Shown here piece after piece: positions 12,672-29,982 of a stretch of 64,000 bases of DNA. The stretch lies in contig NZ_CP022684.1 in the NCBI RefSeq assembly GCF_002863865.1, positions 1,765,501 to 1,829,500 of the forward strand, read 5' to 3'. The DNA comes from Ketobacter alkanivorans (lineage in GTDB: Bacteria; Pseudomonadota; Gammaproteobacteria; Pseudomonadales; Ketobacteraceae). The translations under genes were made by a program, and so were the position numbers. How positions within the stretch are numbered: position 1 is the stretch's first letter; the number at the start of each line of letters is the position of its first letter. The notes beneath the pieces are model-generated. The model was not told the origin of the DNA, did no database searches, and saw only the letters and a list, made by a program, of their open reading frames with translations.

Positions 12672-13886
12672 TTGAACGTTAACGTAAATTTTGATTTTTC
12701 TGATTTGTCAGGAAAAAACTTCAAGTTTCAGGATTCAAGAGCATTGGCCGAATTTTTGGAGTTTGAGGTTAATTTTTGGGCAGAAAAAAATAAGTACATT
12801 GGCAACCAGAGGCAGCTCCATCCATCTATAAATTATTGTTCCAATTTTAAGGATGTTCTGCAAAAAATGCAGAGCTGGGATGAGCAAGAAGATATAACTA
12901 CCGAAATATACCAAGATAAACTGAATGGGCTTAAGCAAAACCTCTTTCGTCACACAAACACTCAGTGGCTTTGGAGCGGTCATTCATACACGAATATTTT
13001 TATTGATTGCCACAAGAATCATGGTTTGGCTACAGCGGCCGCCTTTCTTGAATATGTAACAAAGAACCAAGTTGGAAACCTCAATTCACCAGAATCCTTT
13101 CTAGGTGTCATGATTGGATATGATTATCTAAATCAGGGCGCTGATTTGGTTAAAAGAGGAAAGGCTGAAAGGGAATCAATTGAGCTTTTGCGATGTGAGC
13201 TTGAAAGTGCTCATAAAGCGCTATTTGGGGAGATTGAGGCTTTTAAGAAAACCTTTAATGAGTGGGATGCCACGGTTAAAGAAAATTGGAATACATGGCT
13301 GGTCGATTCTAATGAGCAAAATTCAAATCTACAAAAAAGCACGAAAGACGAGTTCGTTAGCTTTATGGATGGCTGCAACACTAGAATCCAAGATCTTGAA
13401 AATACTTACCAAGAAAAATTGCGCTTAGAAAAACCTGCCACATATTGGAACATAGCAGCAAGGAAGTATGGGGTTCAAGGTGGGTTGTGGGCTTTGGCAC
13501 TTATCGCAGCAGTGCTATTAGGCTTGGTGTATTTTTCAAACTTCTTTCTAGGTTGGCTTGAAGGCAAGCCTATACCTTTAGGATTGCATACTATTCAAGG
13601 CGTTGTAATCTTTGGGAGTATAGCCACTGCATATGCATTTTTAGTCCGAGTGTTGTCTAAATTGACATTTAGCTCACTGCACCTGATGCGTGATGCAGAA
13701 GAACGCGAACAATTAACCTATCTGTATTTGTCCTTGATGAAAGATAGCGATGTAAGTGAGGCGGATCGGAGGATAGTCTTACAGGCTCTATTTAGTCGGA
13801 GTGAAACAGGATTGCTAGCCGCTGAGCACGGGCCAACCATGCCAAGTGTTGGGGAAATTGTAAGTACTGCTTCAAAGTTAAAGTAG
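12672..13886 (+). CDS. DUF6161-type membrane protein
   Basis: A 404-residue protein starting at a TTG after GAGAG. The N-terminal 40 residues (VNFDFSDLSGKNFKFQD) are a typical beta-rich start. A coiled-coil region spans about residues 165-260, two membrane segments lie near 270-295 and 308-330, and a short cytoplasmic tail follows. The layout matches the uncharacterised DUF6161 family, which recurs in integron arrays and mobile DNA. It is the first gene of the array and its attC-like site follows 10 bases after the stop. A role in phage or stress defence is conceivable but not shown. Confidence 0.75.
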   Translation: MNVNVNFDFSDLSGKNFKFQDSRALAEFLEFEVNFWAEKNKYIGNQRQLHPSINYCSNFKDVLQKMQSWDEQEDITTEIYQDKLNGLKQNLFRHTNTQWLWSGHSYTNIFIDCHKNHGLATAAAFLEYVTKNQVGNLNSPESFLGVMIGYDYLNQGADLVKRGKAERESIELLRCELESAHKALFGEIEAFKKTFNEWDATVKENWNTWLVDSNEQNSNLQKSTKDEFVSFMDGCNTRIQDLENTYQEKLRLEKPATYWNIAARKYGVQGGLWALALIAAVLLGLVYFSNFFLGWLEGKPIPLGLHTIQGVVIFGSIATAYAFLVRVLSKLTFSSLHLMRDAEEREQLTYLYLSLMKDSDVSEADRRIVLQALFSRSETGLLAAEHGPTMPSVGEIVSTASKLK

Positions 13887-13896
13887 CATCAAAAGT

Positions 13897-14012
13897 GCTA
13901 ACAATCCGATGCACACGGAGCCAGCTACGCTCCACAGTTATTGTGGTATCGCTGCGCTCTTTTACCACAATAATTGTTCCACTACGCTGGCCCGGTGATT
14001 GGGGCGTTATGC
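13897..14012 (+). other. attC-like recombination site (complete)
   Basis: The site begins GCTAACAATCC and ends GGGGCGTTATGC, about 116 bases apart, with imperfect complementary arms. The inner stem pairs TTATTGTGGTA with TACCACAATAA perfectly, and outer blocks such as GCCAGC pair with GCTGGC. Complementary TAAC / GTTA ends and a long imperfect stem are the hallmarks of an integron attC. It separates the DUF6161 and TIR cassettes. Confidence 0.85.
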
Positions 14013-14029: not shown

Positions 14030-14797
14030 TTGAATTTTCTTAAATATGATTTAGGTAATTTAAAGCGGGGAGAGATTGTCGAGGTTACGCTCACAAGCGG
14101 TGTAAACGTGCGATTAATGGATAGATCTAACTTTAACAGCTATAAAAACGGAAGGAAGCATCGATATTATGGCGGTCTCGCAAAGAAATCGCCCATAAGG
14201 CTTCAGGTTCCCAATTCAGGCCACTGGTATGTAGCAGTAGACATGCAAGGTCTCCGAGGTAGCACTAACGCATCTGTTCGTGTGCTACCAGGAGTATTGC
14301 CGGAAATTCAAGAGCGTGCATTGTCTGAAGTCCCTAGCTTGGTGAGAGATAATGTTCCCCCAACTACAGAAACTGGCGGGGAAACGCACGATGTTTTTAT
14401 TTCTCACGCTTCAGAAGATAAAGACAATTTTGTTAGGCCATTGGCAAATGCCTTATCAAGTGAAGGCTTGAATGTGTGGTATGACGAAATGACACTTCGA
14501 ATAGGAGACAGCCTGAGACAAAAAATTGATAAAGGTCTTGCGAATAGCCGTGTTGGCTTAGTTGTCCTCTCGCCGTCATTCATCAAAAAAGGCTGGACCA
14601 ACTACGAGCTTGATGGAATCGTAACACGAGCAGTTTCAGGTGAGCAGGTATTGCTACCCATATGGCACAACATTACAAAGCAACAAGTCGTAGATTTGAG
14701 CCCATCATTGGCTGATAAAGTTGCGCGCAGCACAGCAACCCATACAATCGAAGAGATCGCTGCTGAAATAGCAGAATTAATTAAGTCGAGGGCATAA
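14030..14797 (+). CDS. DUF1883-TIR domain protein
   Basis: A 255-residue protein from a TTG start with AAAGGAG eight bases upstream. Residues 1-90 match DUF1883 (FLKYDLGNLKRGEIVEVTL, then a GHWYVAVDM strand). Residues 118-250 are a TIR domain: HDVFISHASED, the WYDEM loop, a VVLSPSF strand, and the glutamate in NYELDG (Glu193) in the position of the NADase catalytic residue. TIR NADases act in many anti-phage systems by depleting or processing NAD. DUF1883-TIR fusions are common, but the trigger domain is uncharacterised. It is a single-gene cassette; its stop codon lies in the next attC-like end. Confidence 0.9.
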   Translation: MNFLKYDLGNLKRGEIVEVTLTSGVNVRLMDRSNFNSYKNGRKHRYYGGLAKKSPIRLQVPNSGHWYVAVDMQGLRGSTNASVRVLPGVLPEIQERALSEVPSLVRDNVPPTTETGGETHDVFISHASEDKDNFVRPLANALSSEGLNVWYDEMTLRIGDSLRQKIDKGLANSRVGLVVLSPSFIKKGWTNYELDGIVTRAVSGEQVLLPIWHNITKQQVVDLSPSLADKVARSTATHTIEEIAAEIAELIKSRA

Positions 14798-14824: not shown

Positions 14825-15178
14825 ATGAAAATATTGAGCGTTAATGAATTAATCCAAAACCTAGAAATCTATGTGGGCAAATATGTTCACGTCGAAGGAA
14901 CTCTATGTTACCAATTTGAATGCTGTTGCTTATACCACCGGCCAAAATCCGAATGGGATAAACACAGTGATTATAACTCTAGCATTTGGTACGGCCCTGC
15001 GTTTAATTTTAGCCTAGAGGATCACACGTTGAAGAAGTGGTCTAGTAAACGTGTAGTTATGGGCGGTACTATTCGAGGCCCAAGTGAAAATTTGGGTGGT
15101 TGTGGTCATATGTCTATGTGGCCAGCAGAAATTGAAATTACACAGTTACATTTGCATGGTAGGCTCGGTGAAGCTTAA
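14825..15178 (+). CDS. uncharacterised cassette protein, OB-fold-like
   Basis: A 117-residue soluble protein. The beginning (LIQNLEIYVGKYVHVEGTL) reads like the first strands of an OB fold, and a CCCLYH cluster follows. A middle strand (RVVMGGTIRG) and a late GGCGHMSMWPAEIEI segment complete a small barrel pattern. Cysteines and histidines could bind metal. I do not recognise the family. The stop codon overlaps the left end of a complete attC, as expected for a cassette gene. Confidence 0.65.
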   Translation: MKILSVNELIQNLEIYVGKYVHVEGTLCYQFECCCLYHRPKSEWDKHSDYNSSIWYGPAFNFSLEDHTLKKWSSKRVVMGGTIRGPSENLGGCGHMSMWPAEIEITQLHLHGRLGEA

Positions 15179-15244
15179 CAAGGCAAAGCAGCCTCAGTCG
15201 CTACGCTCCTTGGACAGACTTGCTGTTGTTTGCGGCGTTATGCA
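15173..15244 (+). other. attC-like recombination site (complete)
   Basis: The site runs from GCTTAACAAGGC to TTGCGGCGTTATGC, about 72 bases. GCAAAGCAG near the left end can pair imperfectly with CTGTTGTTTGC near the right end, and the centre is CGCTACGCTCC. Size, ends and orientation match the other attC-like sites. Confidence 0.85.
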
Positions 15245-15438
15245 TCCGAGAAAGTGAGGATCATAGTTCATGAACTTCAGCTCTGCGGTTACGGGGCCGG
15301 ATGGGGCAGAAGGGAGTAGAGCTTGATAGCCTATGTAATTGTTCATCTAACATCTCGTACACAATTTACTAAGTACCAAGTCGTATTTTTCGAAACATAT
15401 GGCGTTGGGGTTGCAGCGGACTAAGAAAGGATTTATTG

Positions 15439-16419
15439 ATGTCTGAAACGGGGAATATAGAAGACCTAGCCAAGATTGTAGCTAAAGATGTCTTTTCTTG
15501 GTTCAAATGGCGGCAAGCCGAATTGAAGGATGTGAACTGGAGTTGTGTTCAAGATCATCACAAAAAGAGTACGCACCCTAGTGATACGGTGTTTAGCTAT
15601 ATTCATCCTTACACCGGGGACAGGATTTTTCTAAATACCGATTTAAAAAGCTACGCAGAAGGTACGATAAAACCCGCTGCGATTAGAAAAGCCATTCAAT
15701 CGTTAGCTATGTCAGTAGAATGTGCGAATGTGAGTTCAGATTGGCAAGAGAAGTACATTCCTGACGATGAGTATACCAACGAGGTAGTTGGGTTGCTTTT
15801 TATATATAATCACGACAACAAATTTGACAGGAATTTTTTCAGTTTTTTGTCACAAATGGACAGAAAGAACCTGAGAATTGCACCCGGAAACACTATAGCA
15901 GTAATTGGGCCCCAAACGATAGATTACCTAGTTAATGTTGTCAATGATATTAAGGTGTTGATAGCTGATGAACATCTTCCAAAAAAGAATGAACTAACCT
16001 TTTACTACCCTGACTTGGTGATGAGTAAACGCCATGGGAGTGAGTGGGATCAGCCTGCAACAATAGAGCTTCTTACTTCACCTTGGATGATTATAAAGCA
16101 TAAGCCTTCAGAGAAGTGCGGAGAGGAAGGATATGTTATCTATTACCGTAGGCTAGGTGAAACGGTAGATGAGTTTATATATTTTTTAGATACTCTGTCT
16201 CACTACCAACTATTACTGCACAATGCGCCGATCAAGTTACGTTTTGTCGGATCTTCGAAAGTAGCAATGCAAAATTTTAATAAAGCTAAAATTCAATACC
16301 TTCAGAGTTGGGGTGCTGATCCTGGCAGGGAACAGCAATTAAATAGGATAGAAGCGTCATCAGTAACAACTGTAGTTACTGAATTTAATCCAATGGAAAT
16401 AGGAATGCGTGATGTCTAG
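15439..16419 (+). CDS. operon gene A: putative PD-(D/E)XK-type nuclease
   Basis: A 326-residue protein started at the ATG at 15439 (GAAAGGA eight bases upstream; a TTG immediately before is less likely). Residues 47-72 carry an acid followed 19 residues later by an acid-x-lysine (Asp49 in HPSD; Asp68-Leu-Lys70 in NTDLKSY), with a strand between. This is the order of a PD-(D/E)XK nuclease core; an upstream Glu28 is available. The rest (residues 110-320) is alpha/beta with no motif I know. It opens a three-gene unit; its stop overlaps the next start in ATGTCTAG, so translation is probably coupled. No family was recognised. Confidence 0.65.
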   Translation: MSETGNIEDLAKIVAKDVFSWFKWRQAELKDVNWSCVQDHHKKSTHPSDTVFSYIHPYTGDRIFLNTDLKSYAEGTIKPAAIRKAIQSLAMSVECANVSSDWQEKYIPDDEYTNEVVGLLFIYNHDNKFDRNFFSFLSQMDRKNLRIAPGNTIAVIGPQTIDYLVNVVNDIKVLIADEHLPKKNELTFYYPDLVMSKRHGSEWDQPATIELLTSPWMIIKHKPSEKCGEEGYVIYYRRLGETVDEFIYFLDTLSHYQLLLHNAPIKLRFVGSSKVAMQNFNKAKIQYLQSWGADPGREQQLNRIEASSVTTVVTEFNPMEIGMRDV

Positions 16420-17515
16420 AAAAAACGGCCCTTCTCTATATCATATGACAGACAAAAATATTTTCGATGCATTGCAACATAAGAAGGTGACATTGAATGC
16501 GTTGAATGATCATCTACTTGAAAGAGGAATATTTCTGTCTGATGAAACAGGCAAGTCAGAAATAACCGAATACGTGGCCAGCCTTCCACACGACTACCAT
16601 CATTATCAGTTTATTGCGGGGCTAATAGAGAATTCAAATAGAAAGGAACCATCAACAAACACCGTATTAGATGTGCAATTAAAGAATGGTGATATTAAGT
16701 CTTACTGTGATGAAGTTGTCAAAACCAGGAAAGGTTCGGGGGAAGTATTGAAGATAAGTCAGAGCGGTGACAGCACTACAGTTACTGTGACTTATACCGA
16801 TGTGGATTTTTCAAAAACTGAAATTCGCCAAAGAACGACCAAGCATGCAGTGATCGAAATCGAGAATAACAATGGTGCGCTTTCAATTCGTAGACCCGCG
16901 AACAATCGTGCAGCTGAGATCGTTGATCAGTTTACAAATGAACTAAAAAAATCCGTAAAAGAAGAGGTTCCAGAGCGGATTATCTCTCTCGAAGCAATAG
17001 TTCAAGCAGAAGCAAGAAGCTATTTTTTTGATAAGCTAATTAAATTGATTGATGGATTCAAATTAGTTGATGTAAAACAAGTTAATGTTAAGTTTTCTGA
17101 AAGTGATGATGGCGAAGATAGTGACGAGGATGACGACAATGGGGTTCTACTTGGGCATATTCAAAAAGCAGTCCTCAATGGTGATGGAGTTCTACAATCT
17201 GCCGAGTTCAACCAACTTCATGGATCCGGGTTTTATATTACGAAGATTACTTGGGTGAGTGTTGATACCTTACCTGGCGGAGACAAAGTGGAATTCTCTG
17301 CTGAATTTGGCAATCCAGATATATGCTCAGACTACAAATATAAAGTATGTTCTATATATGGGTATAAGAAGTTAGACGAATACAATGTAACAGGTCGCTC
17401 ACCCAGTGCTATTGAAAAAAAGGTATTACTTAAAAAATTAGAGGCAGCTTCCTTTTTAGCCTACGAAAAAGTAGTTAACAAATACGGGCAAAATGATTCA
17501 GATGAAGACGATTAG
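16412..17515 (+). CDS. operon gene B: uncharacterised protein
   Basis: A 367-residue soluble protein, started at the ATG that overlaps the end of gene A by eight bases. The N-terminal 80 residues are helical (LYHMTDKNIFDALQHKK...). A beta-rich part follows (TTVTVTYTDVDF), then helices, an acidic stretch (DGEDSDEDDDNG) near residue 233, and a final domain ending in another acidic tail. No membrane segment or signal. The pattern 'short strands, NNRAAEIVDQF, later LGHIQKAVLNG...SAEFN' resembles, loosely, the layout of gene C, so the two may share a fold. Function unknown. Confidence 0.6.
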   Translation: MSRKNGPSLYHMTDKNIFDALQHKKVTLNALNDHLLERGIFLSDETGKSEITEYVASLPHDYHHYQFIAGLIENSNRKEPSTNTVLDVQLKNGDIKSYCDEVVKTRKGSGEVLKISQSGDSTTVTVTYTDVDFSKTEIRQRTTKHAVIEIENNNGALSIRRPANNRAAEIVDQFTNELKKSVKEEVPERIISLEAIVQAEARSYFFDKLIKLIDGFKLVDVKQVNVKFSESDDGEDSDEDDDNGVLLGHIQKAVLNGDGVLQSAEFNQLHGSGFYITKITWVSVDTLPGGDKVEFSAEFGNPDICSDYKYKVCSIYGYKKLDEYNVTGRSPSAIEKKVLLKKLEAASFLAYEKVVNKYGQNDSDEDD

Positions 17516-17564
17516 ATGGTTTAATCTTCAACTACCGGTCTCGATTAGAGAGTTAGGGGATCGA

Positions 17565-18167
17565 ATGAACGAAAATCAGTACAATGAGAGTGCTGGTAAC
17601 GGTTTTATATTGTCTCGAAAAGGGAATAGAAAAATCGAAGGAAAATATGTTGTTAAGGACATCATCAATCAAGAAATAAACGATCCTTTTGGAAACACCC
17701 AAGTATTTAAGCGAATTGAATACATCACGGTTACTTTCAGTATCAGTAGTGATCCTGGTTTGTTCATCCACCTATATAACCCACCAAGAAAAATTAGACC
17801 TTTTATTGATGCAATGTCTGGAATATGTGGTCTTGGCTTTGGGATTTCATCGTTAAGTATTGAGCCACTCAAACTTATAAAAGAATTAGAGCATAAGTTA
17901 GGATATTCTAAAATAACATATATCGAGTGTTCTGGAATAAATGTGGATAATAAAGCTACAGCTAAGGTAGTTCTTAATTCAGAAGAAGATTCCAGAAAAA
18001 GCCTCAAATCCTTTATTAAGGATTCATACTATAAAGTAAATAAGCTAAAAGCAAAATTTGATAATGCCGAATTTTCTGGGGATTTAGAAATTAGAAGCAA
18101 TGGATCTGTTACCTATGCGGATTTTCCTGAGCGTTTTATTGTTCCTATATTAAAATCTTCTTTATAA
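17565..18167 (+). CDS. operon gene C: uncharacterised protein
   Basis: A 200-residue soluble protein. I start it at the ATG at 17565 (AGGGG seven bases upstream); an in-frame ATG at 17493 overlaps gene B but lacks a ribosome site. It is beta-rich at first (YITVTFSISSDPGLFIHLYN), then has a GLGFGISSLS turn, a long helix, and a late NAEFSGDLEIRSNGSVTY segment. No catalytic motif is visible. It ends the operon; no attC follows, and insertion-sequence debris begins within 30 bases, so the cassette's own recombination site has been lost. Confidence 0.6.
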   Translation: MNENQYNESAGNGFILSRKGNRKIEGKYVVKDIINQEINDPFGNTQVFKRIEYITVTFSISSDPGLFIHLYNPPRKIRPFIDAMSGICGLGFGISSLSIEPLKLIKELEHKLGYSKITYIECSGINVDNKATAKVVLNSEEDSRKSLKSFIKDSYYKVNKLKAKFDNAEFSGDLEIRSNGSVTYADFPERFIVPILKSSL

Positions 18168-18195
18168 AGTCACCAACATACTATCAGTTATCGCA

Positions 18196-18234
18196 AGTTA
18201 GAGATGACCTGGGTTCCGCCAGTTAGAAATGACC
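18196..18234. repeat. 14-bp direct repeats, possible IS21-type end
   Basis: AGTTAGAGATGACC (18196-18209) and AGTTAGAAATGACC (18221-18234) are direct copies with one difference, 25 bases apart. Short direct repeats of this kind form the multiple terminal repeats of IS21-family elements. No transposase of that family is nearby, so this would be a relic. The following 140 bases hold nothing I recognise. Confidence 0.45.
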
Positions 18235-18379
18235 CCCCTTGTAGTCTATCAGGTTCCCCTGGCACAGGCACATTGTCAAAGAACAGCCCTAGCATTTAGC
18301 AAGGTAGTCAAGGATAAAGAGCTTGCGTTCGGGTGAGCTTTAGAGGTGATGAAATGCGATTTTGATGCAAGTATAAACC

Positions 18380-18535
18380 AGATGTTGAGGAAGCTTGGCC
18401 GGGCATATTTGCCTATATTGAAACGTTATATAACCGCAAGAGAAGACATTCTGCGAATGATGGCATGGGTCCTGTCGAATTCGAATAGCAAGCAGCGATG
18501 GCTGCATAGTTAGGGTGTCTACTTTTGGTGGGGAA
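18380..18535 (+). mobile_element. IS3-family remnant (3' end only)
   Basis: This segment matches the last part of orfB and the right inverted repeat of the element at 30015-31275: the codons for GIFAYIE, the NRKRRHSAN part, the TAG stop and GTGTCTACTTTTGGTGGGGAACA. A frame-breaking change and premature stop make it inactive. The next cassette gene starts 23 bases after the repeat. Confidence 0.85.
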
Positions 18536-18557
18536 CACCGCCTAAAGAGAAGCAACG

Positions 18558-19211
18558 ATGGATGACAAAGCTAAAGAATGGATTATCTATATAACGGGTG
18601 CAATTGCTGTACTGATGCTTTTCTACGGGATACTTCAGGTACTCATATCTTTTGCAGAAATGCTTCCTGCTCTACTAATGACAGGCATTTTTTTCCTAAT
18701 TTTGCAGATTGTAACACTTGTTGGAGCAGTGCTAGCTATAGGAGCAATTGCGATATTAGTCATACAAGCTGTGTTGTCTATATTGTCTAAATTTGAATCT
18801 GATTTTAATGAGCAAATTGCCTCTCTTAGAAGATCGATTAACAAAGTCACAAACAATCTTGCATCAGAGGTACTAGCAATAATTTCATCTATTCTAATAG
18901 CAATAGCTCAAGACAACCTTTCATCAAATAGCATCACCAAATACTCTATCGGTATTCTATCAGCCGTTTATCTTTTCTTTTCGATACAGTTAATCAAAAG
19001 TGACAAGAAGAAGGATAAAGTTGTAGGGGTGTTTTTTTATACCTTTCCAATACTTGTTTCCTTGGCATATTACCTAGCAGATATAGAAACCCTAATATCA
19101 ACTTTTAACGTTGATAACATTCAAGTTACTATTTTACCCGCTGCTGCATCAATAACTTTGCTGTTAGCATTTTATTATTCATTTAAACCTCAGTCAGCAG
19201 AAAAGGGTTAA
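18558..19211 (+). CDS. uncharacterised polytopic membrane protein
   Basis: A 217-residue protein with about five or six membrane segments: two long ones in residues 9-78, then an amphipathic linker with KFESDFNEQI, then segments near 100-118, 128-146, 154-172 and 188-206. The linker may sit at the membrane face. AGAGAAGCAACG precedes the ATG. The family is unknown. The stop codon lies inside the left end of the attC-like site that follows, so it is a cassette gene. Confidence 0.65.
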   Translation: MDDKAKEWIIYITGAIAVLMLFYGILQVLISFAEMLPALLMTGIFFLILQIVTLVGAVLAIGAIAILVIQAVLSILSKFESDFNEQIASLRRSINKVTNNLASEVLAIISSILIAIAQDNLSSNSITKYSIGILSAVYLFFSIQLIKSDKKKDKVVGVFFYTFPILVSLAYYLADIETLISTFNVDNIQVTILPAAASITLLLAFYYSFKPQSAEKG

Positions 19212-19267
19212 CGAGTTAAGCAAGCGGGCTGGCCTGCTACGCGCCCCCCGTTAGCAACGTTATGCAC
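19206..19267 (+). other. attC-like recombination site (complete)
   Basis: It runs from GGTTAACGAGTTAAGC to GCAACGTTATGC, about 62 bases, with GGGCTGGCC / GCGCCCCCC-type GC-rich arms around CTGCTACG. TTAAC and GTTA ends are complementary. Confidence 0.8.
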
Positions 19268-19368
19268 CTGGATGATTGTCGAGCCCTGTCTAGATTTGAT
19301 ATGTAGATTTAGACTAATATCTCGCGAGTTTAGGTTTAGATTTCCAGCAACACAATAGGTGGCCCTAA

Positions 19369-19701
19369 TTGCCAGAAGTAAAAACAGCTTTACTGTTTAT
19401 CGTCACTGCATTCGCTGAAATAGTAGGGTGTTACTTGCCCTATCTATGGCTTCGTGAAGGCAAGTCTATCTGGTTGCTTTTCCCAGCGGCTTTAAGCCTA
19501 GCAATGTTTGCGTGGCTCTTGTCGATTCACCCCACCGCTGCAGGTAGAGTTTACGCTGCCTATGGGGGCGTCTATGTGTTCGTGGCTATTTTTTGGTTAT
19601 GGGCGGTTGATGGTGTTCGTCCAACAACGTGGGATATCCTGGGCTCTTGTGTTGCACTAGTAGGGATGGCTATTATCATGTTTGCGCCGCGCAATGCATA
19701 A
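19369..19701 (+). CDS. YnfA/UPF0060-family small membrane protein
   Basis: A 110-residue protein with four membrane segments, the usual size for YnfA. The first helix contains [16 protein letters not shown], and AAYGGVYVF and [15 protein letters not shown] later match the family. YnfA proteins belong to the drug/metabolite transporter superfamily and are related to SMR efflux pumps. The start is a TTG with AGGTGG nine bases upstream. Single-gene cassette, preceded by a complete attC; its stop lies in the left end of the next, broken, site. Confidence 0.92.
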
Positions 19702-19720
19702 CAATCATATTAAGTGATCC
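19696..19720 (+). other. broken attC-like site (left end)
   Basis: GCATAACAATC at the YnfA stop codon is a normal left end. A weak CCAAGCTACGTTCC centre follows, but no GCGTTATGC right end is found before the IS remnant at about 19995. The region 19702-20435 otherwise holds a small open frame and insertion-sequence debris. Confidence 0.5.
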
Positions 19721-19768
19721 AAGCTACGTTCCGCATTTTAACAATATAAACGTAACAATAGTGAGAAA

Positions 19769-19936
19769 ATGACAATCAGAATATCTGAGGTGTATTTTCT
19801 ATGGCGTTTTCACCAGTATTTCTCAAGTGATAAGGCATATGGCTCTATAACTAGTCAATTTGGTGATTATCTTGAGCGTTACACATCAGTCAACATTGTT
19901 CAGCTGATATGTAAGCCCGGAATTTTTAAGGTTTAG
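19769..19936 (+). CDS. possible small cassette protein
   Basis: A 55-residue open frame beginning MTIRISEVYFLW and ending CKPGIFKV. It lies between the broken attC and the IS remnant, where a cassette gene is expected. Only a weak GTGAGAAA precedes the ATG and no homology is recognised, so it may be a chance frame or a truncated gene. Confidence 0.25.
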   Translation: MTIRISEVYFLWRFHQYFSSDKAYGSITSQFGDYLERYTSVNIVQLICKPGIFKV

Positions 19937-19994
19937 TTGGTGACGGACATACATATAAGTCTCTAACGAGAAATTGACTACCGACATCTCTTAA

Positions 19995-20416
19995 ATATTG
20001 GTTAAAGATCCTTGGTTTCACTTGGCGGTGGTGATAGATCTGTTTTCACGACGGATTTTTGGCTGCAGCCTGGACACCTCGATTACAGGGGCCTCGATTT
20101 CCAAGACAATGGGCTAAACATTGAGCCAGCGAATCAGCATGAGTCGCAAAGGTAATTGCTGGGAGCGCCTGCCCCACGGAGTGCTTTGGGCACAATGCAC
20201 CAATGGAATCTTTCTTCAGTCGACTTAAAGTTGAATTGATTTACCCGAAGAATTATCGGACGATTGAGGAAGCTAGGTCGGGCATATTTGCCTATATTGA
20301 AATCTTCTATAACCGCAAGAGAAGAGATTCTGCGAATGATGGCATGAACCCTGTCGCATTTGAAGAGCAAGCAGCGATGGCTGCATAGTTAGAGTGTCTA
20401 CTTTTTGTGGGGAACA
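19995..20416 (+). mobile_element. IS3-family remnant (internally deleted orfB, right end intact)
   Basis: From about GATCCTTGG onward the sequence follows orfB of the element at 30015, with internal deletions (the second catalytic aspartate region is missing) and frameshifts. The final part, encoding FSRLKVELIYPKNYR, GIFAYIEIFYNRKR and the stop, is nearly intact. The right inverted repeat GTGTCTACTTTTTGTGGGGAACA ends at 20416. Inactive. Confidence 0.88.
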
Positions 20417-20435
20417 CCACAAAAGCGTAATTAAT

Positions 20436-20984
20436 ATGCCAAGTGTATTAGCCAAAAATTGGTTCGGAGATAAGTTTAACAATCTTCACCCTTTACTTCA
20501 GAAACTGCATACAGAAGGCGGCAGGCTTACTGGTGATGTTGAGATATATTACGGGAAAGGGCTGGCTGGGGTTATTGGTGGTAGGCTAGCGAAGAAAATG
20601 AATTTGCCTAGCGAAGGCACCCATCAACTGGTAGTGAGTATCTCGCATGATAATGATGGCTTGCATTGGGGCCGTTGTTTCGATAATCAGGCATTGGTTA
20701 AGTCATTATTCAAACCTGTAGGGCATATAGAGCAAGGTTATTGGATTGAAACCACAGGGCCGCTATCAATGAAATTGACTGTAGATATTAATAACGGTGG
20801 ATGGTTTTGGCGGTGCCTGAATGTGAATTTCCTAGGTGTTCCAATACCCCGTTGGTTAATTCCGAAAGCCAATGCTTATAAAATTATTGAAAATGGCAAG
20901 TATCGTTTTCATGTTGAATTTTCATTGCCGATTATTGGTTCTTTGGTCTCCTATCATGGGCTACTGCGAGCAGAAAATAGCTGA
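20436..20984 (+). CDS. DUF4166-domain protein
   Basis: A 182-residue protein started at the ATG at 20436. An upstream in-frame ATG at 20394 lies inside the IS inverted repeat and would add non-native residues. The body matches DUF4166: LHPLLQKLH near the start, an EIYYGKGLAGVIGG segment, then HWGRCFDNQ and a late WLIPKANAY. The family is often the C-terminal half of SDR-like proteins; here it stands alone. Its stop overlaps the next start (TGATG), so the two genes form one transcription unit and perhaps one pathway, possibly lipid or quinone related. Confidence 0.75.
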   Translation: MPSVLAKNWFGDKFNNLHPLLQKLHTEGGRLTGDVEIYYGKGLAGVIGGRLAKKMNLPSEGTHQLVVSISHDNDGLHWGRCFDNQALVKSLFKPVGHIEQGYWIETTGPLSMKLTVDINNGGWFWRCLNVNFLGVPIPRWLIPKANAYKIIENGKYRFHVEFSLPIIGSLVSYHGLLRAENS

Positions 20985-21490
20985 TGAGCATTGAGAAAGA
21001 ATTAAGAATAATGCATGCATGTGAATTAGGCGCTGCTGGGGTTTATAGAGGGCATAAATGCGTTGCACGCTACTTCTTCAGGGCTAACCTTTCCAATTTA
21101 GATAATATGCGGTTTCATGAAAAGGATCATGCGTCTATTTTTCGCAACTTACTAAAAGAGCGCGATGCCCGGCTTTGTTTTGCGCACCAATTGTTTTTTA
21201 TAGGTGGCCTTTTTTATGGTGTTATCATAGGGCTACTTGGGCTTAAGGCGATTGGTACGAGCACTTACACTATTGAAGAAATAGTAAATGGTGAATTCGA
21301 GCTAGCGCTTATTAAGCTTGAAAGTGATAGCTCTATTTGCACAAAGATAAGGGCAATACAATTAGAAGAACAACAACATAGAGACTCAGGAAAAGAATTA
21401 GCAGGTAACAATTACGCCCTGTTTGGGGTCGTAGAACGAATAGCGAAGACTGGTGCGTATACAGCGAAGTATTTGGCCTCGTCGCTATGA
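20984..21490 (+). CDS. COQ7-like ferritin-type diiron protein
   Basis: A 168-residue protein with the diiron pattern of demethoxyubiquinone hydroxylases: CELGAAGVYRG (Glu14), FHEKDH (Glu46, His49), a hydrophobic pair of helices with GLLGLKAIGTSTYTIEE, and LEEQQHRDSG. COQ7 hydroxylates a ubiquinone precursor using iron and oxygen. This copy is shorter than the two-domain forms and sits in a cassette, so it may act on another substrate. One-base overlap with the DUF4166 gene. A fragmentary attC-like end follows at 21494. Confidence 0.75.
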   Translation: MSIEKELRIMHACELGAAGVYRGHKCVARYFFRANLSNLDNMRFHEKDHASIFRNLLKERDARLCFAHQLFFIGGLFYGVIIGLLGLKAIGTSTYTIEEIVNGEFELALIKLESDSSICTKIRAIQLEEQQHRDSGKELAGNNYALFGVVERIAKTGAYTAKYLASSL

Positions 21491-21493
21491 ATG

Positions 21494-21515
21494 GGTTAAC
21501 AAAGGCGTTAGCTGG
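21494..21515 (+). other. fragment of attC-like site
   Basis: GGTTAACAAAGGCGTTAGC just after the COQ7-like gene has TTAAC and GTTA elements only a few bases apart, with no room for a stem. It is probably a collapsed attC. Confidence 0.4.
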
Positions 21516-21585
21516 CCTTCTGCTCAGTGATTATTAGTCCTCCAGCCCCGACAGCCATCTAGCATTCACAGAAGCTGCATTCGTT

Positions 21586-21642
21586 TGACAGGCAGGATGG
21601 TTTAGTGGTAATCAGTGCTTAGTTGAAAGCCGAGGCCTGTCA
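21586..21642. other. stem-loop just upstream of a gene start
   Basis: TGACAGGC (21586-21593) and GCCTGTCA (21635-21642) are perfect 8-base complements enclosing 41 bases. The downstream arm ends five bases before the GTG at 21648, so the structure could limit access to the start. Part of the loop (GGTTTAGTGGTAATCA) resembles a tRNA D-arm, but the whole is too short for a tRNA. Confidence 0.4.
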
Positions 21643-21647
21643 GTGTT

Positions 21648-23420
21648 GTGTTAAAATTAGATCACAAAATATTAATGACCTGTTTAGCTGCGTTGTTGTG
21701 GGTTATCTGCGCTCAACTGCAGGCAGCTGATAATGTTGCTGATCAACCGATCGATTCGTTGCTAAAGAGTATACAGGCAGGCCTTTTCCCGACACGGTCA
21801 TATCACGATTACGAAAGGGTGGTTCGCAATTTAAAGCAAGAAGATGAGCCCGAATTTCTGTCATTTCCTTCAAAGCTGGTTTCCAACGACGATTACGCTC
21901 AAGCATTGCATGCCAGTTATCTGGCGTGGGCGTTAGCCAAGAAAAATGGTTCCACTCGTTACCCTGTTGCCTCTTGGTTGAATTTCTTCAAAACCATTTC
22001 ACAAGTCGATCCGCATCATCCTGGGTATGAGCGTGGATTCGCGGAAATCGCCAGTATTCTTCTGTGTGCCTATATGCACCGCCACCCAGATGATATAGAG
22101 AGTGCACAAACCATATTGAGCTATCTGGGGGAGGTAAACCAATTTTCTCCGGTAATGTATGACCAGATATGGAATGACATCATCTATCCACCGGTCTATG
22201 GGCCAACGAAAGTATTCAAAAATACTAAAACATTGGCACTGCTGATGTTGAGTGAAAAGGGTAAGCGTTCCACCCATAGGTTGGTGGGGTTAGCTGTTCC
22301 GCCGGAACGTATGCTGTATCGTATCAATGCCAGAGATTTTACCTTAATGGCAGTGAATAATGGCTCAAGGGAGGACTATCTATCCTGGCTGGATGGCATC
22401 GAGCAGGACCTGATGGTGACAGATCTGAGCCCTTATTTTCCCACCTCTATAGTGACGTACGAAGATTATGTGCGAGCGTTGCATTGGAGCTATGTGGCAT
22501 GGGCGCTGGCACAGTCAGGCAAGCCGTTTGAGGCCCCTCTAATGGAGTGGTTGAACGCTGCGTTGGCGATGGTAGGCGAAGCAGAGAAAGAAGTTGGGGC
22601 AAACGGGCAAAGGGAGCTGATCGCTCGAGCATTGAGTGCGTATCTGTATCTGGCCCCCAGTCGGGAAGGAGCGCTGCAGGCTTTGTTGGATGCCATCGAT
22701 CAAAAGGCTATGCCGCCGTTGTCAGTATTGGACGCTGAACAATACAAAGAACTTTGGCGTGAGATAATGTGCCCTTCGGAAAAGTTTCTGGACGCCCCAG
22801 CGTATGAAGTTTTATTTATGGAAATGGAAAGAGTCTCCTCGAATGATCCTGAAAAAACTCAGTATCTGTTTTCGAGCATAATGAGTTGCTTGCTGCAGGC
22901 GAAGTTTGGCATAAAACAGATCTGGTCGGACGCTGCATACCAAAAACTGGTCAGGCTCTCAAATGAGGGTTTGCCCGGAACGAAGTCGGCACCGGATGGT
23001 ATCAGCACAATCCGTGATATGGCGTGGTGGATTCGAATAAGACTGTATAAAGATAGCATGCCAATGATGGAAGCGCTGAAAATGGAGGGTTGGCGGGTAG
23101 CACCGCTCATTAAAATTTATACAACGCTTTTGTTGGTGTCTTGGGGTTTAAGCGTGGTGGCGGGCATGCTTTACCTGGCGCCAAGGCCTTTGCCGAAAGG
23201 GGGGGCAGCGGTTTCTATCGTGTTGGGTGGCTCCTTCCTCGCGGGAATGATTTTTGTGGTTGCAACGCTGGCGTCAATTGGCCACAACAATGCTAATACA
23301 ACGGGATATTTGAATGTGTTGAGTACAGCGACGCCCGTTTATGCGGTATTTGTTGGCATTTTGTTGCTTTATAGCCTGTATCGATTTTTTGGGCGTACCA
23401 AGGCCGACCCCAATGAGTAG
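21648..23420 (+). CDS. uncharacterised exported/membrane protein with internal duplication
   Basis: A 590-residue protein from a GTG start (an ATG nine codons later is an alternative). A signal peptide or anchor covers residues 1-27 (ending LQAAD). Two related helical blocks follow, around residues 45-210 and 245-400. Compare YAQALHASYLAWALA with YVRALHWSYVAWALA, each followed by a conserved tryptophan segment (ASWLNFF, MEWLNAA). Three membrane segments end the protein (about 488-510, 520-542, 558-578). Function unknown. Confidence 0.65.
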   Translation: MLKLDHKILMTCLAALLWVICAQLQAADNVADQPIDSLLKSIQAGLFPTRSYHDYERVVRNLKQEDEPEFLSFPSKLVSNDDYAQALHASYLAWALAKKNGSTRYPVASWLNFFKTISQVDPHHPGYERGFAEIASILLCAYMHRHPDDIESAQTILSYLGEVNQFSPVMYDQIWNDIIYPPVYGPTKVFKNTKTLALLMLSEKGKRSTHRLVGLAVPPERMLYRINARDFTLMAVNNGSREDYLSWLDGIEQDLMVTDLSPYFPTSIVTYEDYVRALHWSYVAWALAQSGKPFEAPLMEWLNAALAMVGEAEKEVGANGQRELIARALSAYLYLAPSREGALQALLDAIDQKAMPPLSVLDAEQYKELWREIMCPSEKFLDAPAYEVLFMEMERVSSNDPEKTQYLFSSIMSCLLQAKFGIKQIWSDAAYQKLVRLSNEGLPGTKSAPDGISTIRDMAWWIRIRLYKDSMPMMEALKMEGWRVAPLIKIYTTLLLVSWGLSVVAGMLYLAPRPLPKGGAAVSIVLGGSFLAGMIFVVATLASIGHNNANTTGYLNVLSTATPVYAVFVGILLLYSLYRFFGRTKADPNE

Positions 23421-23565
23421 GAATTCTTACTCCAGCGTGGGTTAGCAGATGCCCTAAGGCTATAGTCGTTTGAGTACGAGGTGGGCAGGATAAGCGCTTC
23501 AAAGTAAATGTTTCTACACCTTTCTTTCTCATGCAGAATTTTACCGGTTTGTTTGCGGCCGAATA

Positions 23566-23747
23566 CGTTGGTTGTACTTGGCGGTGGTGATGGATCTGTT
23601 TTCACGCCGGATTGTTGGCAGGAGCCTGGATACCTCGATGACAGAGGCACCCAGAATTGAACACAGGCATACGTTGACTACCTGAGGGGAGCCAGATCGG
23701 GTATATCTGCCTATATCGAAATCTTTTATATCCGCAAGAGAAGACAT
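23566..23747 (+). mobile_element. IS3-family remnant (two orfB pieces)
   Basis: Two joined pieces of the orfB seen at 30381-31247 are recognisable: the part encoding LAVVMDLFSRRI (23575-23650) and the SGIFAYIEIFY part (about 23690-23745). The stretch between is deleted, and the right inverted repeat is lost. It fills most of the 390 bases between two genes; nothing else is seen in that gap. Confidence 0.8.
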
Positions 23748-23810
23748 GGTATACACATTAAAATGGGTGGCAGACAGATTATCTGTTATCAAAGTAGGAG
23801 GCGTCGTATT

Positions 23811-24116
23811 ATGATTAAGTTTGAAAGATACCCCCATATCAATGACCTCCTTTCACATTATGCAGAAAGCCTAAACAACCAAAGGGCCGAACATATACTT
23901 GAAAATGGAGTAAGCAACAAGCAAGAAGCCAAAGAATTTTCAGTATTCGTCTGGCAGGTCGTTGATGCTATGCATGAAGATGAAGAGAATAATATCTCTG
24001 TGCTTGGCAGCACAGACAACATCGAGATGATCCCTGATCTTGAGTACGAAATATCTTCATACATGAAATCCACTGGCTTCTTTAACATTTGGGTAGAAGT
24101 TAGCGAAAGTGCTTAA
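23811..24116 (+). CDS. small uncharacterised cassette protein
   Basis: A 101-residue soluble protein, started at the ATG at 23811 with AGGAGG upstream; the frame extends 16 codons further into IS debris. It is acidic and helical (HYAESLNNQRAEHILENG, then VDAMHEDEENNISVL). No family is recognised. The stop lies in a TTAACAAG motif, the left end of an attC-like site, so it is a cassette gene. Confidence 0.55.
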   Translation: MIKFERYPHINDLLSHYAESLNNQRAEHILENGVSNKQEAKEFSVFVWQVVDAMHEDEENNISVLGSTDNIEMIPDLEYEISSYMKSTGFFNIWVEVSESA

Positions 24117-24140
24117 CAAGTTGCTGATAGCGCCCCTACC
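24111..24140 (+). other. broken attC-like site (left end)
   Basis: GCTTAACAAGTTGC with a following AGCGCCCC is a normal attC start. No right end appears before the desaturase start at 24155, so the site is truncated. Confidence 0.45.
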
Positions 24141-24154
24141 AAACAGGAAGCCTT

Positions 24155-25129
24155 ATGGAGAATGACAGCGGAGTTCCAAGAATAGTTGAGGACGTCCTGA
24201 CCGATGCTGACAACGGAAACGTGGTATGGGCGCCAGCGAAATCGGTATGGTTCATATCAAATGCGGTGATCGCATTGATTGGAGGTTATTTCTACTTTTC
24301 GTGGTCTGCATTGGCACTTTTTTTCGTGTTTACAGGTATAACCTTATGTTTAGGTCATTCTTTGGGGATGCATCGGAGACTGATCCACAATAGTTACAAA
24401 TGTCCTTTGTGGCTTGAATATATCTTCGTGCATTTGGGTGTTCTAGTCGGCATGGCTGGACCCTTCGGTATGGTGCATCAACATGACCTGCGCGACTGGG
24501 CCCAAAGAAAGAAATCCTGTCACTCTTATCTCAGGCATGGGGAAGGATTTATTAAAGATGGTTGGTGGCAACTTAATTGCAATTTGCAATTAAGTAACCC
24601 ACCGATTTTCAACCCAGAGGATCGGATTAAGCGAGATGCAGTGCTCTCTTTCATGGAACGGACATGGATGTTACAGCAACTGCCATGGGCTCTTCTGTTC
24701 TTTGCCATTGGGGGGCTTTCCTGGATTGTTTGGGGAGTTTGCGCACGTGTAACGATATCTGTTGCAGGGCACTGGTTAGTGGGATACTTCGCGCATAATC
24801 AAGGGCATCGAGACTGGCATGTTTCGGGTGCTGCTGTTCAAGGACACAACGTACCTTTCGCTGCGATACTTACGATGGGTGAATCTTGGCACAACAATCA
24901 TCACGCATACCCTGGTTCCGCCGTTCTTGGAATTTATGAATATCAAGCTGATCCTGGGTGGTGGGTACTGAACGCCCTGCGAAATTTAGGGCTGGTTTGG
25001 GATATCGTCCTGCCAACGGATTTACCACATCGTACAGAGTTAGTTTCGATCAATGGTGAATTATCTAGCTTAGGCGAACTTAAAGGGCCAAAACCTTGTG
25101 GTGTGATCCGTACGTTTAGTGGCAGCTAG
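24155..25129 (+). CDS. fatty acid / acyl-CoA desaturase
   Basis: A 324-residue membrane di-iron desaturase. The histidine clusters are HSLGMHR (about residue 68), HQHDLRDWAQ with a following CHSYLRH (about 108-129), and ESWHNNHHAYPGSA (about 245). HD-x-RDWAQ...CH is a variant of the second box seen in one bacterial subfamily, so it should be active. Four or more membrane segments surround the boxes. It would place a double bond in an acyl chain, using oxygen and an electron donor not encoded nearby. It lies in the cassette array as a single gene; no complete attC adjoins it. Confidence 0.88.
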   Translation: MENDSGVPRIVEDVLTDADNGNVVWAPAKSVWFISNAVIALIGGYFYFSWSALALFFVFTGITLCLGHSLGMHRRLIHNSYKCPLWLEYIFVHLGVLVGMAGPFGMVHQHDLRDWAQRKKSCHSYLRHGEGFIKDGWWQLNCNLQLSNPPIFNPEDRIKRDAVLSFMERTWMLQQLPWALLFFAIGGLSWIVWGVCARVTISVAGHWLVGYFAHNQGHRDWHVSGAAVQGHNVPFAAILTMGESWHNNHHAYPGSAVLGIYEYQADPGWWVLNALRNLGLVWDIVLPTDLPHRTELVSINGELSSLGELKGPKPCGVIRTFSGS

Positions 25130-25234
25130 CAATCAGCAGCATAACTACGTACCGCCAATTTCTGGCCCGCTTTTCCGCTACGCTGGGCATCATAGTAATA
25201 ATATCGCATCGGATATCTTTGAGGAAATATAAAA

Positions 25235-25909
25235 ATGGATGCAGAAGAACAAACTACGTTAGTAGGTCGCTGGTTGATTAAGTTAAAGAACCATCCAGTG
25301 GTTGCTATATTGATTATGTTAAGCATTATCATTGTAGGGGTTAGCACGGTATTGGAATCAGCTGGAAATATCAATGATGTGATAACTTCTATTGTTAATG
25401 GTGGTGATTCCGCCAGGGAGGAAACATCCTCTTATATTGGTTCCGAAGCGGTTTCACAGGATGACCTTGTGCACCTTAAGAGCCCTGAACCCAGCACGAC
25501 AGATTACTCCTTTGCTTCTGGGAGCCCAGCTAAAGGGACCGTTGAAATAGATGACGTAAAAGTTGAGTTAAAAACCACAAACTCAGTAGTATCTGGAGCA
25601 TCTTTAAGAAATCAAATTAATCAATCGGCAAACCTAGAATTGCGTTTTTCAAAGCCTATTACAAGCATCAAAATGGCTATACAAAATCCGTTTTATACCA
25701 ATGAGTCCATAATAGATAGCAACATAGGGTTTCCCGATAAAACCTACAACTCCAAGATCACTGTCGAGGATGGGAAAGGAATTTTATTACCTCCTTGGTC
25801 ATCAGGGGTAGTCAAATGGACTAACATCGAAACGCAGGTGGTAAAGTTGCAGACTTCTTCGAATGGCGGTTTGGTGCAATTTAATTCTTTTGAGTTCACA
25901 ACAAAATAG
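25235..25909 (+). CDS. uncharacterised single-pass membrane protein
   Basis: A 224-residue protein from an ATG with GAGGAAAT upstream. One membrane segment lies near residues 22-40 (VVAILIMLSIIIVGVST), followed by a Ser/Thr-rich, beta-rich domain that would be outside the cytoplasm. The late segment (WSSGVVKWTNIETQVVKL, then FNSFEF) suggests a carbohydrate-binding-like sandwich, but no motif is firm. Function unknown. Confidence 0.55.
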   Translation: MDAEEQTTLVGRWLIKLKNHPVVAILIMLSIIIVGVSTVLESAGNINDVITSIVNGGDSAREETSSYIGSEAVSQDDLVHLKSPEPSTTDYSFASGSPAKGTVEIDDVKVELKTTNSVVSGASLRNQINQSANLELRFSKPITSIKMAIQNPFYTNESIIDSNIGFPDKTYNSKITVEDGKGILLPPWSSGVVKWTNIETQVVKLQTSSNGGLVQFNSFEFTTK

Positions 25910-26013
25910 TGCATAGGTACTGAGATAGTCGATGGTTGAAACTGATGTTTTAAAATGTGCTTTCCGGTCACTCAACAAGGTAGTGTACGGTGTTAGATGC
26001 AATAGGGGGTTCT

Positions 26014-26610
26014 GTGAAAATCTACGGTGATATACAGTCTGGAAATTGTTACAAAGTTAAATTGCTATGCGCCTTATTGGATATTGAGCATCAATGGATT
26101 CATGTAGATATTCTTGCCGGTGAAACTAGAAATCCTGAATTTCTGGCTAAAAACCCGAACGGTAAAATCCCATTGCTTGAGTTACCCGATGGTCGTTGCC
26201 TTTCTGAATCCAACGCCATTCTAAACTTTTTGGCCTCTGATAGTGATTTACTTCCAAAGGACAACTTTCAACTTGCCAAAGTTCATCAATGGCAGTTCTT
26301 TGAGCAATACAGCCATGAGCCTTTTGTTGCAGTGGCACGTTTTATTGCTAAATATCTTGGGCTGCCAGAGGCTCGTCGTGCAGATTTTGAATCAAAACAA
26401 GAAGGTGGCAATAGGGCTCTTTCTGTTATGGAAACTCAACTAATGAAAACGCCATATTTAGTCGGTGACAAATTAACTACCGCTGACATAACCCTATATG
26501 GTTACACCCACGTAGCACATGAAGGCGGATTTGATCTTTCCAAATACCCAGCTATTCAATCATGGCTTGGTAGAATTGCATCTAACCCTAAGTATGTAGG
26601 TATGGAGTAA
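26014..26610 (+). CDS. glutathione S-transferase family protein
   Basis: A 198-residue cytosolic GST, started at the GTG at 26014 (AGGGGG six bases upstream) rather than an earlier GTG. The thioredoxin-like domain has the family's NPNGKIPLLEL turn and the ESNAIL glutathione-binding segment; the helical domain has LTTADITLYGYTH. A serine (Ser8 region) probably activates glutathione. It likely conjugates or reduces electrophiles. A complete attC-like site follows the stop, so this is a cassette gene. Confidence 0.88.
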   Translation: MKIYGDIQSGNCYKVKLLCALLDIEHQWIHVDILAGETRNPEFLAKNPNGKIPLLELPDGRCLSESNAILNFLASDSDLLPKDNFQLAKVHQWQFFEQYSHEPFVAVARFIAKYLGLPEARRADFESKQEGGNRALSVMETQLMKTPYLVGDKLTTADITLYGYTHVAHEGGFDLSKYPAIQSWLGRIASNPKYVGME

Positions 26611-26616
26611 ATTGAA

Positions 26617-26703
26617 TTTAACAAGGGACAGCAACCGACAAAGCTTCTCTGACACCGTTCACGCCTTAGGACGCCCAAAGCTCCGCTTGGTACGCGGTTA
26701 TGA
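26617..26703 (+). other. attC-like recombination site abutting an IS remnant
   Basis: The site begins TTTAACAAGGGACAG and ends TACGCGGTTATGAG, about 87 bases, with CCCAAAGCTCCGCTTGG in the arms. The last bases merge directly into IS3-family orfA sequence (GTGCCCAGCA). Confidence 0.75.
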
Positions 26704-27300
26704 GTGCCCAGCAAATCTACAATCGGCGTCGTCGGTTTATGGGGGTTCCGATATGCAATTCAACTCCATAGAAGGAGTTGATTACCTGCACCATAGCCTG
26801 ACCAAGCATAACGTCGCGAATGACCTATTATGGCGTGACTTTGCTTCCGACCGGCCTAATGAGAAATGGACGACTGAGTTCACCTACATTTGGGTTAAAG
26901 GCCGATGGTTGCATTTGGCGATGGTAATGGACATGGCATTGAGCCAGCGAACCGCAGCGCCAGGCCTGATAGCTCATTCAGATCGCGGGGCACAGTATCG
27001 TTCACAGGTGTACATTGACTATCTACGAACCAGTGATATCAGCATCAATATGATGCCTAAAGGGTCACCGCAGGTATAATGCACCGATGGAATCATTCTT
27101 CAGTCGGCTTAAGGTTGAATTGATTTATCCAATGAATTATCGGACGATTGAGGAAACTAGGTCGGGCATATTTGCCTATGTCGAAGTCTTTTATAACCGC
27201 AAGAGCCAGCTTTCAACGAATGATGGCATGAGCCCTGTCGCATTTGAAGAGTAAGCAGCCTTGGCCGCAAAGTTAAGGTGTCTACTTTTCGTGGGGAGCA
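26702..27300 (+). mobile_element. IS3-family remnant (orfA end to right inverted repeat)
   Basis: From GTGCCCAGCA on, the sequence follows the element at 30015 from the middle of orfA through orfB to its right inverted repeat, with internal deletions and stop codons. The first catalytic region (NEKWTTEFTYIW) and the second (HSDRGAQYRS) remain readable, while the left end and parts of orfB are missing. Right end GTGTCTACTTTTCGTGGGGAGCA has one or two changes. Inactive; it explains all of the 722 bases between the GST and the next gene, apart from the attC. Confidence 0.9.
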
Positions 27301-27332
27301 CCACTTGAGTATGCAATACGCATGGGGGAAAC

Positions 27333-27599
27333 ATGAAATATCTTATATATAGTCTACTGCTAATATTCCTTGTTAATGTTAGTACCAATGCCCAACCCGT
27401 TCAGGATGGGAATCAGGATTTAATAATAGTACCTAAAGAATCTACGGCATGTGAATGGAACCCAAAGAGAGAACTTAAACCATCACCCGTACGGTGTGGA
27501 CTGAATGATCTAGGTGCTCCAAATATTGGCATCTATGATTGTGGAAAGTCAGACAACTGTGAAGATCACTGTGTTTTTATTCAATGCCAAGTAATATAA
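27333..27599 (+). CDS. small secreted cysteine-rich protein
   Basis: An 88-residue protein with a clear signal peptide (residues 1-20, ending STNA). The mature part has six cysteines, four of them in CGKSDNCEDHCVFIQC near the end, suggesting disulfides in the periplasm or outside. Start ATG has GGGGGAAAC upstream, and the gene begins 32 bases after an IS right end. It is followed after 14 bases by the 590-residue exported protein gene, so the two are probably one unit. No family recognised. Confidence 0.55.
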   Translation: MKYLIYSLLLIFLVNVSTNAQPVQDGNQDLIIVPKESTACEWNPKRELKPSPVRCGLNDLGAPNIGIYDCGKSDNCEDHCVFIQCQVI

Positions 27600-27613
27600 G
27601 TCGGGGGGGGATC

Positions 27614-29386: not shown

Positions 29387-29655
29387 GATGCTGAACTGTC
29401 TAATTTTATGTGTAGAAATCTAGTTTCGAATTAAAGCAACCCCCAAATATTGGAATCTTTATGATGCGCTCGGCAGGCTAAACATTAATATTCAAAGCAC
29501 ATAGCAAGTTTATCAACCTGGATGCAATTACCGTTTGGGGTTTGTGTTCAATGCGCTTACGATACAAAGCCGCTCCGACATTCGGTTTCGGTTACAAATG
29601 CTTTGTACGCCCGAACTTGTAGCACTGCAAAAATGATCAGAATTTAGGTATCCAA
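29387..29655. other. intergenic region with attC-like hairpin
   Basis: No gene. TACAAAGC (29563-29570) pairs with GCTTTGTA (29600-29607) around a CGCTCCGACATTCGG centre, which resembles the middle of an attC, but clear TAACAA and GTTATGC ends are absent. Confidence 0.35.
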
Positions 29656-29982
29656 ATGGAGCGACTACGACACCCAACCTACGCCAGAAATAGGCGAGTA
29701 TTTTTCTTAGCATCAAGTGTGTTGCTTGCTACATTTTTGGCATGCGGCTTGGTTTTGCTTAACATTTATAATAGAACTCCCTCACTGGAAAACGCACTGA
29801 CGGTCTCATTTCTATCTTTGCTCCTGCTGTTTTTTGTGGTTGCTTTCTTTGTCGATTGTAAGTGTAGGTGCATTACCTGTGGAGCGTGGCCAACCAAACA
29901 TAGCAGCTCGATTGATGACGATAACAATAAGTTGTTTATTTGCAAATCGTGTGGGATCGAGTGGCATACTGGGAGTGAATAA
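29656..29982 (+). CDS. small membrane protein with C-terminal zinc ribbon
   Basis: A 108-residue protein. Two membrane segments (about residues 15-35 and 48-68) precede a cytoplasmic tail with CITCG and CKSCG pairs 25 residues apart, the spacing of a zinc ribbon. The stop codon lies at the start of a short attC-like end, so it is a cassette gene. Function unknown; such tails often contact nucleic acid or another protein. Confidence 0.6.
   Translation: MERLRHPTYARNRRVFFLASSVLLATFLACGLVLLNIYNRTPSLENALTVSFLSLLLLFFVVAFFVDCKCRCITCGAWPTKHSSSIDDDNNKLFICKSCGIEWHTGSE

Follow-up and report, generated by a model that had tools for sequence, protein, structure and literature searches.

A diverged 3HP operon with a predicted PD-(D/E)XK nuclease and a predicted RdgC/CENP-N-like partner, beside a candidate gene-cassette site in Ketobacter alkanivorans

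The window, i.e., the whole stretch of 64,000 nucleotides from Ketobacter alkanivorans that was analyzed, contains three consecutive open reading frames on one strand (genes A, B, and C) that correspond to the proteins Hp1, Hp2, and Hp3 of the defense system 3HP:

15439..16419, + strand: gene A (Hp1), 326 aa, predicted PD-(D/E)XK nuclease (PADLOC, PHROGs, AF2, Foldseek, conservation)
16412..17515, + strand: gene B (Hp2), 367 aa, predicted helical N-terminus (residues 14-72) followed by two TBP/RdgC-like alpha-beta units (81-182 and 199-358) (PADLOC, AF2, Foldseek, conservation)
17502..18167, + strand: gene C (Hp3), fast-evolving, 221 aa from the ATG at 17502 (PADLOC, PHROGs, homolog alignment)

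The three same-strand frames and the 8-nt overlap of genes A and B, described in an earlier note on this DNA, were found in the sequence as reported. The frame of gene C is open already from 17493; since the homologs align from the ATG at 17502, and the Hp3 profile begins at residue 4 of the ORF starting at 17493, the start of gene C is placed near 17502, where it overlaps the 3' end of gene B by 14 nt. The 49 bases given earlier as the distance from B to C are therefore wrong, gene C having been started at an internal methionine (17565). The three genes are AT-rich, as had been noticed, with GC contents of 39.4% (A), 38.0% (B), and 33.3% (C) vs. 48.4% for the window. A scan for sigma-70 promoters over positions 15150-18350 placed none ahead of gene A and returned fewer hits than shuffled sequences did.

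The operon had been called unrecognized; a PADLOC profile search recognizes all three genes, each nearly over its full length, with PDLC03004 (Hp1) matching gene A (E 3.7e-87), PDLC03005 (Hp2) gene B (E 1.7e-63), and PDLC03006 (Hp3) gene C (E 2.9e-24). Homologs of all three proteins are thus present at the locus, adjacent, in the order Hp1-Hp2-Hp3 and on a single strand, an arrangement that holds family-wide; the three frames are free of stops and retain the invariant residues. In PHROGs, gene A matches phrog_7059 (E 2.5e-112), whose function is listed as unknown, and genes B and C match PHROG 6531 and phrog_5850 (E 2e-48 for C), families without an assigned function. The public record of Vibrio phage 1F53_PE003 labels the homologs of A, B, and C as Rst_3HP__Hp1, Rst_3HP__Hp2, and Rst_3HP__Hp3. 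Single-protein and profile searches of Pfam, NCBIfam, and PDB sequences gave nothing usable for any of the three; the matches were scattered and at chance level (e.g., CodY for gene B, E 0.27).

The PADLOC trio Hp1-Hp2-Hp3 is the Rst_3HP of DefenseFinder and the three-gene system “with no clear predicted domain” that shields Escherichia coli from phage P1 (Rousset et al., 2022; PMC9122126). The copy tested in that study was P2-borne and came from the P2 gpA-gpQ hotspot (PMC9122126), and the DefenseFinder paper lists Rst_3HP as mainly prophage-borne (PMC9090908). The Ketobacter operon almost certainly belongs to 3HP; judged by its sequence, it is a complete, diverged copy of a system known since 2022, and by analogy it may confer the anti-phage protection that has been published for its P2-borne relative. 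It shares with known 3HP all three proteins, their order and strand, and the overlapping genes; it differs in that its Hp1 is ca. 28-54% identical to the relatives found, and in that it adjoins an attC-like cassette site on the chromosome rather than lying in a P2-type prophage hotspot. A literature search that covered few subscription journals found no account of how 3HP works, and no paper connecting it with integrons.

Relatives of Hp1 were gathered from genomes (80 loci), viral contigs (80), and annotated plasmids and phages; a search of genome contigs with the single protein found nothing, and an alignment query succeeded. DLKSY was one of the two patterns in the genome scan, so that part of this set is ascertained for the motif. 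The conserved A-B-C order that the earlier note proposed to look for in homologs was found: all three genes are present in this order at 167 of 178 loci, and the 11 loci without the full trio are all on fragments that break off inside the operon or shortly behind it. Among the full loci, only L153 has more than 1 kb between B and C. By record title, the Hp1 relatives come from gamma-, beta-, and alphaproteobacteria, Campylobacterota, Verrucomicrobia, Acidobacteria, cyanobacteria, and others; the closest found (ca. 51-54% identity, with a maximum of 54%) are mostly from marine gammaproteobacteria (Vibrio, Shewanella, Photobacterium, Salinivibrio). The spread is patchy, with Hp1 in 3 of 58 relatives and Hp2 in 4 of 399 genomes of the phylum, one of these four being a short, weak match. 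The trio occurs on P2-like and filamentous phages, a Vibrio phage, and plasmids. In P2-like elements, Hp1 relatives at 42.5% identity, accompanied by Hp2 and Hp3, are flanked by the portal gene and gpA-type replication genes; the trio has this position in a Klebsiella P2-type phage and in an E. coli plasmid record that includes P2-type phage genes, and these relatives occupy the same P2 hotspot as the system of Rousset et al. (PMC9122126). In the Pseudomonas filamentous phages 54-4 and 99-2 (loci L017 and L024), 3HP stands at the end of 13-kb genomes and thus rides very small phages as well.

The surroundings of the Ketobacter operon include the following features:

12672-13886: DUF6161 protein with an AbiZ-like C-terminal half (PADLOC AbiZ, 1.3e-18)
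13899-14012: best-folding attC-like site, after the DUF6161 gene (z -2.3)
14030-14797: DUF1883-TIR protein, predicted phage-defense candidate (PADLOC PDC-S66, 6.2e-71)
15176..15243, + strand: attC-like site (TAACAAGGCAAAGCAG ... CTGTTGTTTGCGGCGTTATGC), an imperfect palindrome read by eye, of moderate confidence
18310..18541, + strand: degenerate 3' end of an IS3-type transposase (repeat family D1/D2), which ends the recognizable cassette unit downstream of gene C
19209..19265, + strand: attC-like site after a 217-aa gene, on the same basis and with the same caveat as the site at 15176-15243
30381-31247: transposase ORF with an rve integrase core (PF00665, 2.8e-28, 30381-31244)

Reading toward the operon, the order is DUF6161 gene, attC-like site, DUF1883-TIR gene, a 117-aa gene, attC-like site; gene C is followed by the IS3 remnant, the 217-aa membrane-type gene with its attC-like site, and a YnfA-family gene. 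The two neighbors named in the earlier note were correctly identified (PF08980 at 5.6e-36 and PF13676 at 3.7e-21 for the DUF1883-TIR protein, 6.8e-42 for the DUF6161 protein). They were rejected as parts of 3HP, since the relatives of A-B-C stand in unrelated surroundings and attC-like sites intervene here. TAAC reads at the stops of the TIR, 117-aa, 217-aa, and YnfA-type genes, as in cassettes; at the site at 15176-15243, the 117-aa gene that precedes it has its stop codon within the TAAC. The DUF1883-TIR gene, with its stop within GCATAAC, looks like a gene cassette of its own. At 20394-21510, there are DUF4166 and COQ7-like genes with overlapping stop and start; the sequence after them, TAACAAAGGCGTTAGC, has the look of a collapsed attC site. 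The full transposase ORF at 30381-31247 has four related remnants in the window, among them that at 18310-18541; overall, four to five degenerate 3' copies of an IS3-family transposase (repeat families D1-D5) are dispersed over positions 18310-31279.

The cassette assignment is graded as moderate, since its basis is positional (TAA stops inside TAAC, GTTATGC ends), and a scan for attC sites by palindrome score performed, as a whole, no better than on shuffles. The sites at 15176-15243 and 19209-19265, two of the three, had scores and folds not above those of shuffles, and the former has no second copy in the genome. The operon has an attC-like site on its upstream side only; none lies directly downstream of gene C, the next being that at 19209-19265. 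For the “cassette-sized unit” of the earlier note, an attC-like site is seen at the upstream border, and on the other side an IS3-type remnant follows instead. An intact integron integrase is encoded ca. 1.3 Mb away (G000:C1:3081644-3082585; L002, L187; TIGR02249, 484 bits), with no recognizable attC array alongside. With moderate confidence, the surroundings form a decayed cassette array; it lacks an integrase, and 3HP stands in it behind an attC-like site, with no attC of its own.

Residues of gene A are numbered here from the ATG at 15439; counting from the upstream TTG gives numbers one higher. Asp49, Asp68, and Lys70, picked out earlier as an acid...acid-x-Lys pattern, are present as described and belong to the residues that are invariant in 93 non-redundant relatives (E3, C36, H41, H46, P47, D49, Y54, P57, D68, L69, K70, S71, C95, F121, and N124). 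In a pattern check over 175 proteins, the D49 block was intact in 173 and the DLK block in all 175; both blocks are also kept at each of the 15 loci that were found by tblastn or profile search, without the motif pattern. The AF2 model (pLDDT 94, pTM 0.91) shows an alpha-beta-beta-beta-alpha-beta core with a helix at 2-21, strands at 45-55 and 62-72, a helix at 79-96, and a strand at 115-124; the two central strands carry D49 and D68xK70, and the first helix carries E3. The best Foldseek match in the PDB is HamA, the nuclease of the Hachiman system (E 2.2e-4, probability 1.0), followed by FokI and Can2 among the matches of higher probability and by EndoMS and EcoO109I among those of lower probability, all of them PD-(D/E)XK-class nucleases. 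Other entries, such as acetyl-CoA carboxylase, were taken as chance matches, with long and poorly fitting alignments. The model that the earlier note proposed as a check thus came out as a nuclease fold with conserved motif residues, and topology, structural neighbors, and invariant residues together very probably place gene A in the PD-(D/E)XK type. TM-scores against HamA are low (0.24-0.33), so that gene A is regarded as a distant member of the superfamily with a C-terminal half of its own. The prediction that Hp1 is an active nuclease can be made with good confidence; in HamA, the E138/K140 pair is needed for Hachiman defense (PMC12278908). Four invariant Cys/His residues (C36, H41, H46, C95), three of them near the predicted catalytic D49 in sequence, could form a metal site.

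Hachiman itself, defined by HamA (DUF1837) and the Ski2-like helicase HamB, is a different system: 3HP shares with it a PD-(D/E)XK effector for which HamA is the best solved match, but A, B, and C have no match to DUF1837 or to a helicase; there are three proteins, and no ATPase was found among them. A likeness in the mode of action would hold only if Hp2/Hp3 serve as sensors.

The AF2 model of gene B (pLDDT 91.5) consists of N-terminal helices and two alpha-beta units, the first of the order beta-alpha-beta-beta-beta-beta-alpha; Q140, G257, and W281 are invariant. Its Foldseek neighbors in the PDB are CENP-N/Chl4 (probability 0.97-1.0), RnlA, KA1, and TBP-like domains; in BFVD, they include the RdgC models of three phages, which match nearly over the full length (E 2.6e-5 to 1.4e-4) with TM-scores of only 0.30-0.38. 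The orthologs of CENP-N and CENP-L have been reported as similar to RdgC and TBP (PMC4080450). The likeness of gene B to RdgC and CENP-N/Chl4 is one of predicted fold; it differs from them in having no sequence-profile similarity, and in its N-terminal helical region and an acidic loop at about residues 228-245. Gene B has no Pfam match to PF04381 and is no member of the RdgC sequence family; hhalign comparison with the RdgC profile gave a probability of 0.4%, and probabilities of up to 1.2% showed no kinship for B-RdgC, C-RdgC, or B-C. B or C as a true RdgC was rejected on this profile comparison with 24 real RdgC proteins; the host encodes a true RdgC of its own elsewhere (G000:C1:563754-564662). 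Since sequence profiles give no support for common descent, “RdgC-like” is here a statement about fold; the resemblances of A to HamA and of B to RdgC are, on the models, at fold level with large rearrangements. More likely than not, Hp2 has an RdgC/TBP-like fold and binds DNA.

Gene C is far less conserved than gene A. Its sequence suggests that it may repeat the beta-alpha-beta4-alpha order of gene B, with its FIDAM helix at the place of the IVDQF helix of B (165-182 in the B model). The shared fold of B and C suggested in the earlier note was tested by profile; hhalign on whole and half alignments gave probabilities of 0.1-0.7%, and such a relation is conceivable at the fold level only. One Pf-phage record names the C homolog “RdgC-like exonuclease” and the Hp1 homolog “nuclease related protein,” which indicates that others have had a similar idea.

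Taken as a whole, the best explanation, probable by a modest margin of confidence, combines 3HP membership with a nuclease Hp1 and an RdgC-like Hp2(-Hp3) sensor. Hp2, probably with Hp3 as its partner, would form an RdgC-like DNA-binding clamp or sensor that would hold Hp1 inactive on host DNA, and would direct or release it onto DNA states of an infecting phage (ends, replication or recombination intermediates); metal-dependent hydrolysis of the targeted phage DNA by Hp1 would follow, and the cell might or might not be killed. This sensor-effector scheme, drawn from the models, is tentative, with slightly less than an even chance of being right in all its parts. A more specific version is somewhat unlikely: 3HP could be a mechanistic class of its own, in which an RdgC/CENP-N-like heterodimeric clamp of Hp2 and Hp3, without an ATPase, senses the topology or recombination intermediates of phage DNA and passes this DNA to a HamA-like Hp1. 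If true, the clamp reading would represent a defense use of a fold that eukaryotes employ at centromeres.

The main rival, unlikely at present, is abortive infection of the toxin type, in which Hp1 would cut RNA or host DNA and Hp2/Hp3 would act as antitoxin or inhibitor. In its favor, structural matches of Hp2 include the RnlA toxin of RnlA-RnlB (probability 0.84-0.97) as well as an RNaseLS-like phage protein, and strongly unequal conservation of the kind seen between C and A is common in toxin-antitoxin pairs; yet the RnlA match spans just about half of Hp2, the best credible matches of Hp1 are DNA nucleases, and the order of nuclease, B, and C is invariant, without the partner swapping that is frequent in toxin-antitoxin loci. 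Some members of the PD-(D/E)XK superfamily are non-catalytic, and C36, H41, H46, and C95 equal the acidic residues in their invariance; Hp1 could accordingly be a dead or structural fold with these four residues as the true functional center, e.g., a zinc site. This is improbable, however, because the canonical D...DxK and the helix-borne E3 are all invariant, which would be unexpected for a decayed active site. The proposal of an undescribed defense or conflict system would fit the lack of sequence matches in Pfam, NCBIfam, or PDB for the single proteins; it survives as to defense but is refuted as to novelty by the three full-length PADLOC matches, the published activity of the family, and the naming in a public record.

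The preferred reading, a nuclease Hp1 guided by an RdgC-like sensor, adds to what was already known, namely 3HP as a named defense system since 2022; the models predict Hp1 as a nuclease and Hp2 as a clamp-like DNA-binding protein. The interest of the locus lies in this prediction of mechanism and in its cassette-array context, not in a new system. Its position suggests that a system usually carried by prophages can enter a gene-cassette array on a chromosome. With the predicted catalytic residues E3, D49, D68, and K70 of Hp1 and the RdgC/CENP-N-like predicted fold of Hp2, the “three hypothetical proteins” become a hypothesis, open to testing, of a nuclease plus a DNA sensor.
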